IMG/VR virus record: IMGVR_UViG_3300025070_000294
Location: 1-20,884 of that record
Direction: 5' to 3' (one strand)
DNA length: 20,884 nt
Source: a virus
Shown here: positions 4,654 to 20,884 of the stretch, piece after piece
Position numbering within the stretch: the stretch's first letter is position 1
How the letters are laid out: each line of letters opens with the position of its first letter
The notes under the pieces: model-generated
The model's database searches: none
What the model saw: the letters and a program-made list of their open reading frames with translations, nothing else
What the model was told of the DNA's origin: nothing
Position numbers and translations under genes: made by a program

Positions 4654-7600
4654 GTGGCTGAAGAAATGTATACTCAAAGAGCCTATGATAGTTCTTTTAT
4701 GGATCTAAAAGATGACAAAGAATTTCAGGTTGACCTAGTACGTTTCTTTTCTGGTGGTAGATATAATCTGTCCAGAGAAGAAATGGAAGAAGTAGGTATG
4801 GATGGGCTTACAGAAAAGTTCGTTGAGCACATGAGAGTTCAAGCATGGAATGAGGTAACTCAAGCCAAAGACTTAAACTACCTTTTGAATAAAGACCTAC
4901 ACAGAAAAGGTAAAGAATCTTTTGCTAGACTACAACATGCCTGGGATGTATCTCAGGAAGCAGGGGATGACTTTGGAGATGCTGCTTTAGATTATGCTGA
5001 AGGTATCTTTACTGCTCCTTCTACCTACCTAGGTCTAGGTTCTTTTGGTCTTGGAAAGCTTGCATCAAAAGCAGCAGGTAAGGCTGCACAAGTAGCTATA
5101 AGAAACTATACTAAGAGACTACTGTCAAAAAATGTTGTTGGAAGAAGTGCAGCTTTGGGTGCAGCCAGTGGTGCTGTAACTGAAGGTGCTGTAGGGGCAG
5201 GACAGTCTTACCAACTAGGGGAACAAAGAGAATTAGCTTCCGAGTTTACTGAAGATGTCCCTGAGTTTGAATACACTGGTCAAGACTTAGCTAAAGATAC
5301 TGCAATATCTGCAGCCTTTGGAGGTATTCTAGGTTCAGCAGGTGGATTTCTTTCTGGTAAAACTGCTAAAAGTAAAGATGCAATGACTGCTGTGCAGGAA
5401 GCAAAGAGAGCCAGTGCAAATGTAGAGGCTAAGAAAGCTGCTAATGCTAGGTTTAAATCTTCTAATCCTGCTAGACAACAAGATGCTGCACAAAGAGTTT
5501 CAGATGTTGAGTCAGTTCTAGCTGCAAAGTTAGGAGATAAGACTGCTAAAGTAAGAGACCCTCTTGATCCTGAGAAGGTGTTAGCAGGTAACGAGATTCT
5601 TAATAAACTGTCTAACCCTGATTTTGATGGAGTGTTTAAGTCTGGTCTATCTATGGATACCATGAGGTCTTTGACTGCAGCAACTATTGATATTGTAGAA
5701 GAACTTCAAATTAACGAAGGGGAAAGGATCACTAGTGCAATAGCAAATAAAATTCGTAGTGGTGATGTAGCTATTGTAGATAAAGTGAATGAGATCAGAC
5801 AAAAGTATAACTTATCCCAAGAACAATTCTCTTTACTATACTTAGCTGAAGTTTCTAACGCAGGTAAAATTCTAGCAGAGCAAAGTATTATATCTAAGGC
5901 TGCAAGAGCAGCAGGTAGACTTACTGGATCTGACCTAGGAAGAACTGAATTTGATGGTTTGAGTGTAGACTTAACAACACTTGCACAAAGTGGTATCTCT
6001 ACATTTAATGATCAGGTAGTCACTGAACTTACTGCTGAAGTAGTGAAAAACTCTGCTCAAAGATCTAAAACATTTAAGTATATTGTTGATCCTATGAGAG
6101 AGATTGATGCTGCTCGTATAGCATTTATGACTTCTCAACCTGCAACAACAATAAGAAACGCAGCATCTACTGTTCTTCTAGCGGGTGTTGATGTTTCAGA
6201 TGAGTTCTTTAGAGGATTAGTCAGGTATGGTAAGGCTGCAAAAGAGGGAGACCTTATACCTGAGCCTGGTAAGACAGTTAAAAGAATGACTGCTACACTC
6301 AGAGGTATGACCTGGAATAATGCACAGGCAAGTCTACTGAAAGATATGTTTGCAGAGGAGATGCCTCAAACATATGCAGCAGTTTTCAACGATGCTATGA
6401 GACTAGAGCTAGGCACAGCTTCTAATTCTATGTTAGCAAAGACTGGTCGTGCAGTTAATGTATTCAACACTGCTCTTGATACCACATTTAAGCAAGCAGC
6501 TTTCTTTGCAAGTCTAGACAGACAGCTAACTGATCAAGGAATTACTGTAGGTCAGTTTATTGCAAGTGGTAAAAAGTTAGAAGATCTTGGACAGGACACA
6601 ATACGTAAAGCATACGATGATGCAAACAGATTTACTATGCAGAGGACTTATGTAGGAGATGAATCTGCTTTTGGAAAGACTGCCAGGTTTGCTGTAAACG
6701 TAAATAGAAAAGTACCTTTCTTAGTATCAGGTGCCTTGGGTATTCCTTTCCCTCGTTATGTTGCAAACCATCTTGAGATGTTGTCAGACTACACACCTGT
6801 GTGGGGTCACTATCTTGCAAAGACACCTGCAGCATCTGACCCAATTAAAACTGCAGAGGATAGAGTTGTTCGTCAGATGACAGGTGCAAGTCTTCTTATG
6901 TTAGGTTATGCTGCTGCAGCAGAGAAGGAAGGTGATGTAGACTACAAGTCTATTGAGACTGCTATAAAAGGACAAGCAGACGTATCGTCCTCACTTGGAT
7001 TTATTATTGGTCACATGTATGCAGGAGACCTTGCTTACAGATGGAAGAATGGATTACCAATGCCAAGTGCTGGGGAGTTAGAAACTGTTTTAGGTGGTGT
7101 TGGAGACTTTAGTGCAGACTTTACTTTCATACAAGAGTTAATCAATAGTTCTAAAGAGGGTCAGGTTACAGAAGGATTTCAGAAAGCTATAGGTAATTTG
7201 GCGGCAACCCTAACCTACCCTGCTACAATATCAAGAGACTTTGTAGGACAATACGACTATGATGCAGCAGGTAATCCTTACATCAGAGATGTCATGGGTC
7301 AAAATCCTTTTGATAATCCAGGTGATGTAAGTCTTACAGGTGAGGTAACAAACTTCCACACTGGTGTAGCACAAGCGACAAGAATGTTACCTGACATTAA
7401 ATCAATCCAGTACACACAGTCTTTCAATGGAGAGACTGATATACCTATGTATTCTATTCTTAATCCTATGAAAGTTGGAGCTATGAACCCACTTCTCAAA
7501 CAGATAACAGGTGTATCAAGTGAACCTCCTATGACTGATATTGAGAGAGAATTTAATAGAATGGGATTGAAAGAATACCAAGTCTATAAACCCTATGCAG

Positions 7601-8049
7601 TTAGGAACCCATCCGTTCATTACCTTATGACCTACAACTTATCTCAGACACTCCATGAAACATTTGATAACTGGAGAAAAGACACACGTCTTGGTGGCCT
7701 AGCAAATGGTAAGACTTACGATCAAATTGAAGATAATGATTTAAAAAAAGAAGCATTGCTTAAATTTGTAGAAGAGTCAGTAAGTCTTGCTAGGACAGAT
7801 GCAACAAAGAAACTTGAAGATGGTCTAGCAAATAATAAGAAATCAGTTAAAGGATATATCAGGCTTAACTACGAAATAAAAAGACAAGAGCTTGGCGTAG
7901 AATACTTCGATAGGGCAGCAGAACAAATATCAAGAGGTGAGTTTAAAACTGCTAAAGATTATTTGATGAACTCTGATAGTCCAAAGCAAGAACTAGAAAG
8001 ACGACTAGGTATTGTAGAAATTGCAGGAGATATCTCCAGTACCAGGTAA
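4654..8049 (+). CDS. Large internal/ejection-type virion protein, 1131 aa
   Basis: The longest gene in the window, and the last of the late block. It starts at GTG with AGGAG about 9 nt upstream. Residues about 110-165 and 205-240 are Ala/Gly-rich, weakly hydrophobic or amphipathic segments (for example GLGSFGLGKLASKAAGKAA and SAAFGGILGSAGGFLSG) of the kind that can insert in or cross a membrane. The rest is mainly helical, with a hydrophobic stretch near residues 490-520 and near 745-760. Its size and position at the end of the virion operon fit the role of T7 gp15/gp16 (internal core proteins that build the DNA-ejection channel), but I see no sequence signature that proves homology, and the lysozyme domain found at the N-terminus of T7 gp16 is instead in the 277-residue gene upstream. 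The stop is directly followed by a bidirectional terminator. Confidence 0.65.
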   Translation: MAEEMYTQRAYDSSFMDLKDDKEFQVDLVRFFSGGRYNLSREEMEEVGMDGLTEKFVEHMRVQAWNEVTQAKDLNYLLNKDLHRKGKESFARLQHAWDVSQEAGDDFGDAALDYAEGIFTAPSTYLGLGSFGLGKLASKAAGKAAQVAIRNYTKRLLSKNVVGRSAALGAASGAVTEGAVGAGQSYQLGEQRELASEFTEDVPEFEYTGQDLAKDTAISAAFGGILGSAGGFLSGKTAKSKDAMTAVQEAKRASANVEAKKAANARFKSSNPARQQDAAQRVSDVESVLAAKLGDKTAKVRDPLDPEKVLAGNEILNKLSNPDFDGVFKSGLSMDTMRSLTAATIDIVEELQINEGERITSAIANKIRSGDVAIVDKVNEIRQKYNLSQEQFSLLYLAEVSNAGKILAEQSIISKAARAAGRLTGSDLGRTEFDGLSVDLTTLAQSGISTFNDQVVTELTAEVVKNSAQRSKTFKYIVDPMREIDAARIAFMTSQPATTIRNAASTVLLAGVDVSDEFFRGLVRYGKAAKEGDLIPEPGKTVKRMTATLRGMTWNNAQASLLKDMFAEEMPQTYAAVFNDAMRLELGTASNSMLAKTGRAVNVFNTALDTTFKQAAFFASLDRQLTDQGITVGQFIASGKKLEDLGQDTIRKAYDDANRFTMQRTYVGDESAFGKTARFAVNVNRKVPFLVSGALGIPFPRYVANHLEMLSDYTPVWGHYLAKTPAASDPIKTAEDRVVRQMTGASLLMLGYAAAAEKEGDVDYKSIETAIKGQADVSSSLGFIIGHMYAGDLAYRWKNGLPMPSAGELETVLGGVGDFSADFTFIQELINSSKEGQVTEGFQKAIGNLAATLTYPATISRDFVGQYDYDAAGNPYIRDVMGQNPFDNPGDVSLTGEVTNFHTGVAQATRMLPDIKSIQYTQSFNGETDIPMYSILNPMKVGAMNPLLKQITGVSSEPPMTDIEREFNRMGLKEYQVYKPYAVRNPSVHYLMTYNLSQTLHETFDNWRKDTRLGGLANGKTYDQIEDNDLKKEALLKFVEESVSLARTDATKKLEDGLANNKKSVKGYIRLNYEIKRQELGVEYFDRAAEQISRGEFKTAKDYLMNSDSPKQELERRLGIVEIAGDISSTR

Positions 8050-8053
8050 AAGA

Positions 8054-8085
8054 AAACCCCCAGGGATTAACTGGGGGTTTAGTTT
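8054..8085. terminator. Bidirectional intrinsic terminator between convergent blocks
   Basis: A 10-bp perfect stem (arms 8054-8063 and 8071-8080, core CCCCCAG/CTGGGGG) encloses a 7-base loop. On the plus strand the stem ends in TTTAGTTT; on the minus strand it is followed by TTTTCTTTT. It lies 4 nt after the stop of the last late gene and overlaps the last codon of the minus-strand gene, exactly where the two convergent transcripts meet. Confidence 0.85.
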
Positions 8086-18796: not shown

Positions 18797-18873
18797 TGGC
18801 CCACCCTGTAGGACTCGAACCTACAACCTACTGCTTAGAAGGCAGTTGCTCTATCCAGTTGAGCTAAGGGTGG
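18797..18873 (-). tRNA. tRNA-Arg (anticodon UCU)
   Basis: Complete cloverleaf of 77 nt on the minus strand. Acceptor stem CCACCCT/AGGGTGG, D-arm GCTC/GAGC, anticodon stem ACTGC/GCAGT around loop CTTCTAA with anticodon TCT, a 5-base variable loop, T-arm GTAGG/CCTAC with TTCGAGT, discriminator G and an encoded CCA. It reads AGA (and AGG by wobble). AGA is the main Arg codon of the late gene I counted and of the adjacent HNH gene. It lies in the gap between the 61-residue gene and the HNH gene. Confidence 0.95.
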
Positions 18874-19104: not shown

Positions 19105-19320
19105 TCATCTGTCCATGTAGTCCTTGTCCCATTCAATCTGAATATCCTTCCCCATTACTTCAGACAATGCTTTAACCACTGATTCACTTCCCTTTTCAAA
19201 CCCTTCATCGTATGCTTCTGCTATGTCTTCCTTATCGTTGTACTGCCTATACAGGAAACCTGCTAAGAAAGATAGGACTACAATTAAAATTGTAATAGGT
19301 TCTGGTATATAAATATTCAA
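19105..19320 (-). CDS. Small single-pass membrane protein, about 71 aa
   Basis: One N-terminal hydrophobic segment (ITILIVVLSFLAGFLY) is followed by a charged cytoplasmic or periplasmic part rich in Asp, Glu and Lys. I place the start at TTG 19320, because it overlaps the upstream stop by 4 nt (TTGA, like the ATGA junctions elsewhere) and has GAGG 8 nt upstream. A GTG at 19353 would add 11 residues and a 37-nt overlap. Unrecognised. Possible roles include a lysis accessory or superinfection function; nothing in the sequence decides this. Confidence 0.7.
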   Translation of the reverse strand: MNIYIPEPITILIVVLSFLAGFLYRQYNDKEDIAEAYDEGFEKGSESVVKALSEVMGKDIQIEWDKDYMDR

Positions 19321-19520
19321 TGGTATATCCTCAAATCTTTTTGTTTCTTCCACTCATGAAACTGTTCTGCTGTTAGTCCACTGTCTTCCATAAACTCTTG
19401 TAGATCGTAGACTGATTCCATCAGTTCAGTATTCGTCAACATAATTTTTTTCATTAAGTCTTCTGTGTCTTCCTCATTCAACAACTGTAAAACTTTCTTG
19501 TAGTCATCATCTGTCACCAT
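19317..19520 (-). CDS. Small acidic helical protein, 67 aa
   Basis: Starts at ATG 19520 with AAGGAGG 3 nt upstream. The ten extra residues of the longer frame (to 19550) lie inside the upstream gene and lack such a site. The product is acidic and helical (VLQLLNEEDTEDLMKKI, ESVYDLQEFMEDSG) without a recognisable domain. Start and stop both overlap neighbours by a few bases (7 nt upstream, 4 nt downstream), so it is translationally coupled. Confidence 0.75.
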   Translation of the reverse strand: MVTDDDYKKVLQLLNEEDTEDLMKKIMLTNTELMESVYDLQEFMEDSGLTAEQFHEWKKQKDLRIYH

Positions 19521-19735
19521 GTCCTCCTTGTTTTCCAGTAGACCCAACACTCAGAGCAGTGACCTCTGCCTAGGACTACATCAATCAACCAAACAATATT
19601 AAATCTTTTATCTCTTTTCCATTGCCAGTTTCTAGCACTGAAAGTTTGGTTGTTACTACCCCCTAATACTACATTAATCAGAACACTGATAGCTGTAATA
19701 ACTCTGAACCAGTAGGGCTTACCTGTAGTATACAC
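19514..19735 (-). CDS. Small phage protein with LGG...SAR motif, 73 aa
   Basis: GTG start at 19735 is supported by AAGGAACTTAAA just upstream. The sequence PYWFRVITAISVLINVVLGG, then NQTFSARNWQWKRD and a C-terminal GHCSECW, resembles a short phage protein family I recall from other phages ('DQ-x-x-N-x-x-LGG-x-x-x-E-T-L-SxRA'); its function is not known to me. The N-terminal third is hydrophobic enough to be membrane-associated. First gene after the inverted-repeat control region, so it may be the first gene of its transcript. Confidence 0.75.
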   Translation of the reverse strand: MYTTGKPYWFRVITAISVLINVVLGGSNNQTFSARNWQWKRDKRFNIVWLIDVVLGRGHCSECWVYWKTRRTW

Positions 19736-19753
19736 TTTAAGTTCCTTTCTTAA

Positions 19754-19829
19754 AGTATTACTAACAGTAACTAATCTATATAAGAAATAAAGATATAAGT
19801 TTTAACTGTTAGTAATACTATTAGTATTA
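19754..19829. promoter_or_regulatory. AT-rich inverted-repeat control region with promoter-like core
   Basis: Perfect 15-bp inverted repeats (AGTATTACTAACAGT at 19754-19768; its complement at 19805-19819) flank a 36-base AT-rich loop. On the minus strand the loop holds TTAAAA (19800-19805) and TATATA (19777-19782) exactly 17 bases apart, a promoter-like core. A second inverted repeat of 8 bp (19813-19820 and 19822-19829) overlaps one arm. It lies in the largest non-coding stretch (19736-19870), immediately before the 73-residue gene. Consistent with a promoter and operator or a replication initiation site. Confidence 0.6.
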
Positions 19830-19870
19830 GTTATATTGATCCTGTTTCGTTTCAAGTATGACAGATTGTC

Positions 19871-19945
19871 TCACCACCCAATAAACACAAGTAACCCTAC
19901 GTAACCCACGTTCAGTGCTATCGCTATGATCTCGTATGTTTCCAT
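19871..19945 (-). CDS. Membrane microprotein, 24 aa
   Basis: Reading the minus strand, ATG at 19945 shares one base with the stop of the upstream gene (TGATG). The 24-residue product is METYE followed by a single hydrophobic span (IIAIALNVGYVGLLVFIGW) ending at the stop. A single-span microprotein. The coupled start and wholly hydrophobic composition argue against chance, but such short frames are uncertain. Confidence 0.5.
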   Translation of the reverse strand: METYEIIAIALNVGYVGLLVFIGW

Positions 19946-20737: not shown

Positions 20738-20884
20738 TTATGAGAATAGTTCTTGTAGTTTATCCCACTTGTGTGCCTTATCCTTAAAGGTCTTCATTGT
20801 TTTTATTGTATTAACGTGATCATCCTTTGCTTTCTGTAATTGATCTCGCAGGTTTTGTAGTTCGTTATTAACTAGATCAGAAAA
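20738..20884 (-). CDS. Partial gene, C-terminal 48 aa of a coiled-coil-like protein
   Basis: Open frame entering from the right edge and ending at TAA 20738. The visible 48 residues are a charged amphipathic helix (ELQNLRDQLQKAKDDHVNT, then KDKAHKWDKLQELFS), suggesting a coiled coil. The N-terminus is outside the window. The frame is open to the very end and its codon use is plausible. Identity unknown. Confidence 0.6.
   Translation of the reverse strand, partial: FSDLVNNELQNLRDQLQKAKDDHVNTIKTMKTFKDKAHKWDKLQELFS

Follow-up and report, generated by a model that had tools for sequence, protein, structure and literature searches.

What would a perfect inverted repeat enclosing a promoter-like sequence do in a phage genome, and which genes would it serve? 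The question is raised by a locus in a 20,884-base viral contig (the window, i.e. the whole stretch of DNA that was analyzed), for which a preliminary description had proposed either a promoter flanked by operators or a cruciform-forming replication site. As judged from sequence comparison, the window represents part of the genome of a phage akin to Roseobacter phage CRP-9, the closest named phage, with DNA 82% identical over 46% of the window, mostly in the replication block. According to the accessible text of PMC8528129, CRP-9 and CRP-13 combine a Cobavirus-like replication module with an HMO-2011-like virion module.

Setting and architecture of the inverted repeat

The long reading frames of the window run leftward to the right of position 8084 and rightward to the left of position 8049, which places the element inside the replication/early operon. 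Between the converging operons, a perfect 10-bp hairpin with a T-rich tail (8054-8080) is probably a terminator. Two further genes were observed on the minus strand: a tRNA-Arg (tct) at 18797-18873, 59 bases of which are 93% identical to Synechococcus phage tRNA-Arg genes, and an HNH endonuclease gene at 18776-18159, which adjoins thyX, matches PHROG 99 and possibly encodes a homing endonuclease.

The two 15-bp arms are exact and lie 36 nt apart, with AGTATTACTAACAGT at 19754-19768 and its reverse complement at 19805-19819. No other perfect inverted repeat in the window exceeds 10 bp with a loop of at most 100; dinucleotide shuffling of the entire window (30 shuffles) gave arms of up to 14, and shuffling of the 210-bp gap (2000 shuffles) gave arms of up to 13. 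Each arm sits inside a longer imperfect 21-bp dyad (19748-19768 and 19805-19825) with the consensus ACTnnnAGTAWTACTnnnAGT, which has 15 fixed positions. A further 8-bp repeat, described as overlapping the right arm (19813-19820/19822-19829), is present but not separate, being part of the right dyad plus its flank. The features of the locus are listed below, where A1 denotes an alignment of 15 sequences.

19871-19945, minus strand: 24-codon reading frame METYEIIAIALNVGYVGLLVFIGW, which precedes the element
19860-19870, minus strand: box B, near-palindrome GACAATCTGTC, directly 3' of the stop of the 24-codon frame (19871); similar palindromes lie beside the late sites
19850-19855, minus strand: TTGAAA, possible -35 region, conserved, 14 bp from TATAAC in 15 of 15 aligned rows
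19830-19835, minus strand: TATAAC, possible early -10 and possible operator half-site, conserved (CATAAC in L242)
19805-19825, minus strand: O1, 21-bp dyad ACTAATAGTATTACTAACAGT, 15 of 15 fixed positions, contains the right arm, kept in A1
19769-19804, minus strand: AT-rich 36-bp core between the dyads, holding most of TTAAAA-N17-TATATA
19748-19768, minus strand: O2, 21-bp dyad ACTGTTAGTAATACTTTAAGA, 14 of 15 fixed positions, contains the left arm, kept in A1
19514-19735, minus strand: first gene 3' of the element, 73 aa, PHROG 3342 (function unknown), GTG start, ribosome site at about 19741-19751
19317-19550, minus strand: next gene, gp18 family, 66-77 aa, more consistently adjacent to the early element

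Read along the minus strand, the order is box B, TTGAAA, TATAAC, O1, AT-rich core, O2, ribosome site and GTG start. The gap had been taken as non-coding, but the 24-codon frame (19945-19871, minus strand) also lies inside it. The frame is hydrophobic and overlaps the stop of the preceding gene; in relatives, a short hydrophobic frame of varying sequence occupies the same place before box B. That the arms might form an RNA terminator, an alternative raised at the outset, is not borne out, as neither arm is followed by a T-run, and a terminator scan, which takes loops of 3-8 only, lists none at 19748-19825.

Conservation of the early cassette

The arms are conserved in relatives, where they are kept as paired 21-bp dyads. 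The 133-bp gap was recovered in CRP-9 (5146-5262, 81% identity over 115 of 133 bases) and in five IMG/VR contigs at 79-100% identity. Alignment A1 includes contigs fetched by pattern; loci repeating the same contigs were left out, as was L243, a near-copy of L240. Across its rows, both dyads largely retain the ACT and AGT triplets and the AGTAWTACT core, while the nnn triplets and the inter-dyad stretch vary; the exceptions are L241, in which O1 is broken by an insertion, and L248, in which the O1 core is one base longer. Box B and TTGAAA are invariant by construction in eight of the 15 rows (L240, L242 and L244-L249), which were retrieved with an exact box-B pattern; both are also present in the seven rows found otherwise (WIN, which is the window, G003, L007, L241, CRP-9, L123 and L239).

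The alignment bears directly on where the promoter may lie. The preliminary description had placed TTAAAA-N17-TATATA between the arms, and the motif does exist on the minus strand (19805-19800 and 19782-19777, with 4/6 matches per hexamer), but it is not conserved: among the 15 aligned rows, both hexamers occur together in just two, the window and G003, a near-copy of it, with L007 keeping TTAAAA, and the proposal of a promoter between the arms is not upheld. A promoter scan lists nothing in the gap, with TTAAAA-N17-TATATA scoring below its cut-off, and a rule-based search found no TTG-type promoter in the window's gap. What is kept across the 15 rows is TTGAAA ... TATAAC, upstream of the arms. 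The 14-bp spacing between the two is too short for an ordinary sigma-70 promoter, and TATAAC is a possible early -10, assigned by its spacing.

In two rows, L123 and L239, no match to the 73-aa gene was found, and the same element abuts a gp18-family gene. The element thus stays while the downstream gene changes, indicating that it serves the operon rather than the 73-aa gene. The distance between O1 and O2 varies from 43 to 85 bp, the AT-rich core accounting for 22-64 bp, and a phased DNA loop between the two dyads is disfavoured by this variation.

The late cassette and competing explanations

Two dyad places per genome were found in 14 records. In CRP-9, clusters of the exact ACTNNNAGT box together with the dyad scan mark 5.2 and 55.0 kb, and in G003, a 57-kb contig, they mark 12.4 and 7.8 kb; CRP-13 has box clusters at 3.4-3.5 and 54.2-54.3 kb, its late dyads reaching only 12/15. 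The remaining records with two places are G004, G006, G008, G009, G017, G018, G023 (where the second place is a single 13/15 dyad), G028, G029, G033 and G038. A single place was found in records that are contig fragments or were part-scanned (the window, G001, G007, G010, G013 and G016), and G036 has no dyad place. Lone dyad matches of 13-14/15 occur elsewhere at CRP-9 7289 and G006 20121, and also in G023, G038, G025 and G039.

The late cassette, which lies outside the window, precedes a gp73-family gene, the first of the opposing operon, and in CRP-9 this late operon continues from gp73 to the terminase, portal and coat genes. A scan for gp73 relatives gave 433 stretches, of which 80 were kept; 79 gp73 loci were reduced to 37 non-redundant ones by shared 11-mers, with L328 left out (7 bp upstream). 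Within the 300 bp upstream of gp73, the dyad is present at at least 13, 14 and 15 of 15 positions in 29, 26 and 20 of the 37 loci, respectively, compared with shuffle means of 0.55, 0 and 0 for 13, 14 and 15/15 dyads and with 0/36 in a downstream control; eight of the 37 have no dyad at 13/15 in this region. A TTG-type, sigma-70-like promoter matching at least 10 of 12 positions accompanies 25 of the 37 loci (1.8 expected) and is perfect in nine (0.03 expected).

For the 32 loci having both a promoter of at least 9 and a dyad of at least 12, we took the nearest promoter-dyad pair. The dyad begins exactly at the end of the -10 in 13 of them and within 3 bp in 21, a distance that has no shuffle control and that the nearest-pair choice biases towards small values; in six loci (L329, L330, L339, L359, L363 and L364) the nearest dyad lies 42-110 bp beyond the -10. 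The start of the dyad at or near the late -10 is the strongest mechanistic evidence, as O1 would cover the transcription start.

Specificity was assessed in several ways. Exact paired dyads in viral contigs gave 33 stretches, in 21 of which the fetched sequence encodes a gp73 or gp18 relative (in L370, the gp73 evidence is a 21-residue end alone); the other 12 are low-complexity repeats, coding as judged by eye. A one-mismatch dyad occurs in 17 of 25 gp73 records (isolated in G039), versus 0/25 for a reversed control pattern. When named phages were searched with the DNA of the element, CRP-9 was the only one with E <0.1 among the best 40 of 46 records (E up to 10). The dyad at 13/15 is absent from ICBM1, CRP-4, CRP-345 and CRP-1, CRP-5 has one isolated 13/15 dyad at 31154, and no dyad was found in the approximately 11 kb scanned of each of CRP-207 and CRP-2.

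Other repeated motifs were seen along the way. By eye, CRP-2, CRP-207, CRP-345, ICBM1 and CRP-4 have inverted or repeated motifs that differ from phage to phage, either ahead of the late operon or within the terminal non-coding sequence, e.g. two copies of AACATTAATGTT in CRP-2. The non-coding right end of the CRP-9 record (approximately 55440-55555) has multiple GTTTAACRTTAAAC-like palindromes, perhaps the operator of another regulator. In L139 and L183, three copies of the reverse complement of AGTATTACTAACAGT at 39-bp intervals are apparently a repeat within coding sequence, unrelated to the operator.

In four integrase-bearing relatives, the other site precedes the integrase gene. It lies about 50 bp before a long frame matching Phage_integrase in G028 and G038, and by coordinates 415 bp separate dyad and integrase domain in both G029 and G033, suggesting that in these relatives the operator is tied to integrase control.

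Box B is conserved in relatives upstream of the dyads as the palindrome GACAnnnTGYC (GACAnnnTGTC-like). From its centre to the last base of TATAAC the distance is 35 bp in 11 of 11 early rows; in the 13 late loci that have both box B and a late -10, the distance between them is 62-65 bp (64 in 10 of them), the script having taken the copy nearest 65. With the -10 end counted as -7, box B centres at about -42 in the early and about -71 in the late cassette, positions that we take to be those of class II and class I activators. An exact TTGACA -35 occurs in 0/13 box-B loci versus 10/21 others (Fisher p 0.005, for a hand-listed comparison that ignores relatedness). The arrangement resembles activator promoters of the CRP class I and II type in having a palindrome at about -42 (early) or -71 (late) and -35 hexamers that depart from TTGACA, and it differs from them in that box B is shorter than a CRP site and the early -10 is deduced from spacing.

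The positions of the dyads also bear on whether the sites are phage replication origins, with iteron-like dyads for an initiator, an AT-rich unwinding element and, possibly, initiation from the adjacent promoter. We consider this very improbable. An AT-rich core between repeated dyads and two sites per genome would suit an origin, RNA polymerase is absent among the annotated products of CRP-9, and the late site of that phage (54974-55090) lies within 1 kb of the cumulative GC skew minimum (55700). The skew, however, is confounded, as its extremes in CRP-9 (16400 and 55700) coincide with switches in gene orientation, and the early site at 5.2 kb is at no extreme; furthermore, the core has no strongly conserved motif, and an origin would not need late dyads positioned relative to a -10 hexamer.

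The O1/O2 pair could instead act in cis as an RNA hairpin in the 5' leader, serving as an antitermination signal, stabilizing the mRNA or masking the ribosome site, an explanation to which we give little credence. Each phage has two cassettes, each in a presumed leader, and the arms are predicted to fold with -23.8 kcal/mol (z -3.65, with 0/200 shuffles as stable), but such a fold in the window is expected of any perfect inverted repeat. To evaluate pairing across relatives, 48 elements gave 33 O1-O2 pairs, which were reduced by hand to 23 by dropping near-copies and broken or ambiguous pairs. With early and late pairs pooled, the inner variable triplets pair at 59/99 positions versus 41.2 in shuffles (0/5000) and the outer triplets at 47/99 versus 37.7 (0.02). 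When 23 of the 33 pairs were stratified into early and late, the excess in the hairpin registers shrank to 40/69 versus 33.2 (0.035) and 35/69 versus 30.1 (0.06), and of two wrong-register controls one was equally inflated (31/69 versus 24.2, 0.007) and the other was not (32 versus 31.5, 0.50).

Within A1, cells changed on both sides favour the hairpin (11 versus 6.6, reached in 14/500 shuffles), as does the covariation score (34/500), but at the variable hairpin columns 4-7 of the 15 rows have no pair, the number of further pair types does not exceed that in shuffles (496/500 as high), and pairing each dyad with itself does no worse by the same comparison (2 and 4 of 500). In L329 and L330, moreover, overlapping dyads stand 12 bp apart before gp73, unlike the arms of a hairpin. 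Because the pairing is not specific to the hairpin register and self-pairing of the dyads is as good, the data look more like inverted copies of a single DNA operator than like a selected RNA stem, although they do not amount to proof. HK022 put and lambda nut are antitermination signals that likewise occur as two sites per phage in the leaders of two operons; in contrast to them, the arms here show no specific conservation of their pairing.

The operator flanking proposed in the preliminary description thus fares well, in that relatives keep the arms as dyads and the same genomes carry these dyads again at a second promoter. We regard it as probable from these sequence comparisons that the element is a phage promoter regulatory region, with O1 and O2 as operators around an AT-rich core, and that it belongs to a two-promoter regulon in which the operators block RNA polymerase. 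According to this model, the early promoter would drive the remainder of the early operon in the leftward direction (minus strand), with O1 and O2 downstream of or overlapping it. A dimeric protein would bind O1 and O2 and keep RNA polymerase off, and the same regulator would act at the second cassette before the late (structural) operon. Exclusion of RNA polymerase at both cassettes would switch both operons together, and box B, centred some 42 bp (early) or 71 bp (late) upstream of the presumed start, may be the site of a second, activating protein.

Candidate regulators and biological context

Which protein could bind the operators? The absence of a recognizable repressor gene nearby holds within the window, which ends at 20884. 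An XRE (HTH_3) protein encoded further upstream in the operon of G003 was rejected, as it was found in only one of 14 related records, G003 itself; HTH_3 is over the cut-off in one of 15 records. The gp14 and gp18 families tracked the cassette in the first comparison but are present in only 6 and 9 of 25 gp73-bearing records, respectively, and G028 and G038 carry the cassette without either, so that both were dismissed as the regulator.

The gp73-family protein is our leading guess, a tentative one, and as the product of the first gene of the late operon it would possibly be autoregulatory. Its gene adjoins the late operator, and the protein is very conserved around RVHIPRSDVFY. A model of the monomer (mean pLDDT 86.4, pTM 0.72) has helices at residues 13-22, 26-29, 37-50 and 56-65 and no strand of at least 3 residues; residues 31-35 may form an intersubunit strand, and from the order of elements in the model we would guess at a ribbon-helix-helix fold. 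Comparison with the PDB gave no match at E ≤0.001 (best E 2.6, best Z 2.4), sequence searches gave no match to a DNA-binding family, and comparison with BFVD gave two unnamed or uncharacterized viral proteins at E <0.01. The family is also present in CRP-345, CRP-2 and CRP-207 at 43-62% identity, where the dyad was not found (CRP-2 and CRP-207 being part-scanned). The 82-92 aa protein encoded at 8362-8084 of the window stays a candidate: it has an AT-hook match that is barely over the cut-off in the window copy and does not appear in the CRP-9 copy, and it is present in all carriers compared and also in the dyad-less G036.

The dyads might otherwise be operators of a host transcription factor, a variant of the promoter-operator reading whose odds overlap with it and which seems unlikely to us. 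No recognized sequence-specific DNA-binding family is common to the carriers among the proteins scanned, as this variant would have it, but in the genome collection the exact paired dyad turned up in just 4 stretches (from a Herbinix, two Alistipes and one Bacilli bin), where the fetched sequence has none of these phage genes, and CRP-1 and CRP-4, isolated on strain FZCC0023 like CRP-9, are without the dyad at 13/15. As all 4 matches are unrelated, prophage evidence from genome contigs was rejected as well.

The element read as a promoter regulatory region has well-known counterparts. Lambda OR/OL and P22 Arc and Mnt are multi-dyad phage repressor-operator regions at two promoters, and the Arc and Mnt operators are 21 bp long. 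The present system is similar in having repeated dyads that overlap the start of two promoters in one phage and, compared with Arc and Mnt, a dyad operator of the same length. It differs in that two dyads flank an AT-rich core of 22-64 bp, that the operons controlled would be a replication/early block and a structural block, and that the repressor is here a candidate. The sequence comparisons indicate an operator system with two sites that is real and conserved in a group of marine phages, of an ordinary kind (operators at phage promoters) and undescribed in the literature searched.

The word 'promoter' occurs 0 times in the accessible text of PMC8528129, PMC9038755 and PMC6918029, and the literature covered on HMO-2011, marine-phage operators and Cobavirus promoters, with subscription papers mostly outside that coverage, contains no description of the element.

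A more far-reaching and rather doubtful interpretation is that the cassette is a lysis-lysogeny or immunity-like switch in abundant ocean phages, in which one repressor, perhaps an Arc-like autorepressor gp73, would repress both the integrase/replication and the virion blocks. The architecture would then have been kept while the operator sequence changed between groups, and it would persist in integrase-less phages of the CRP-9 type. A route to the regulator leads through a protein common to dyad carriers, and the cultivated phages CRP-9 and CRP-13, together with the host strain FZCC0023, make the question directly testable. If the reading as operators holds, two short DNA elements would define the promoters that such a phage switches.
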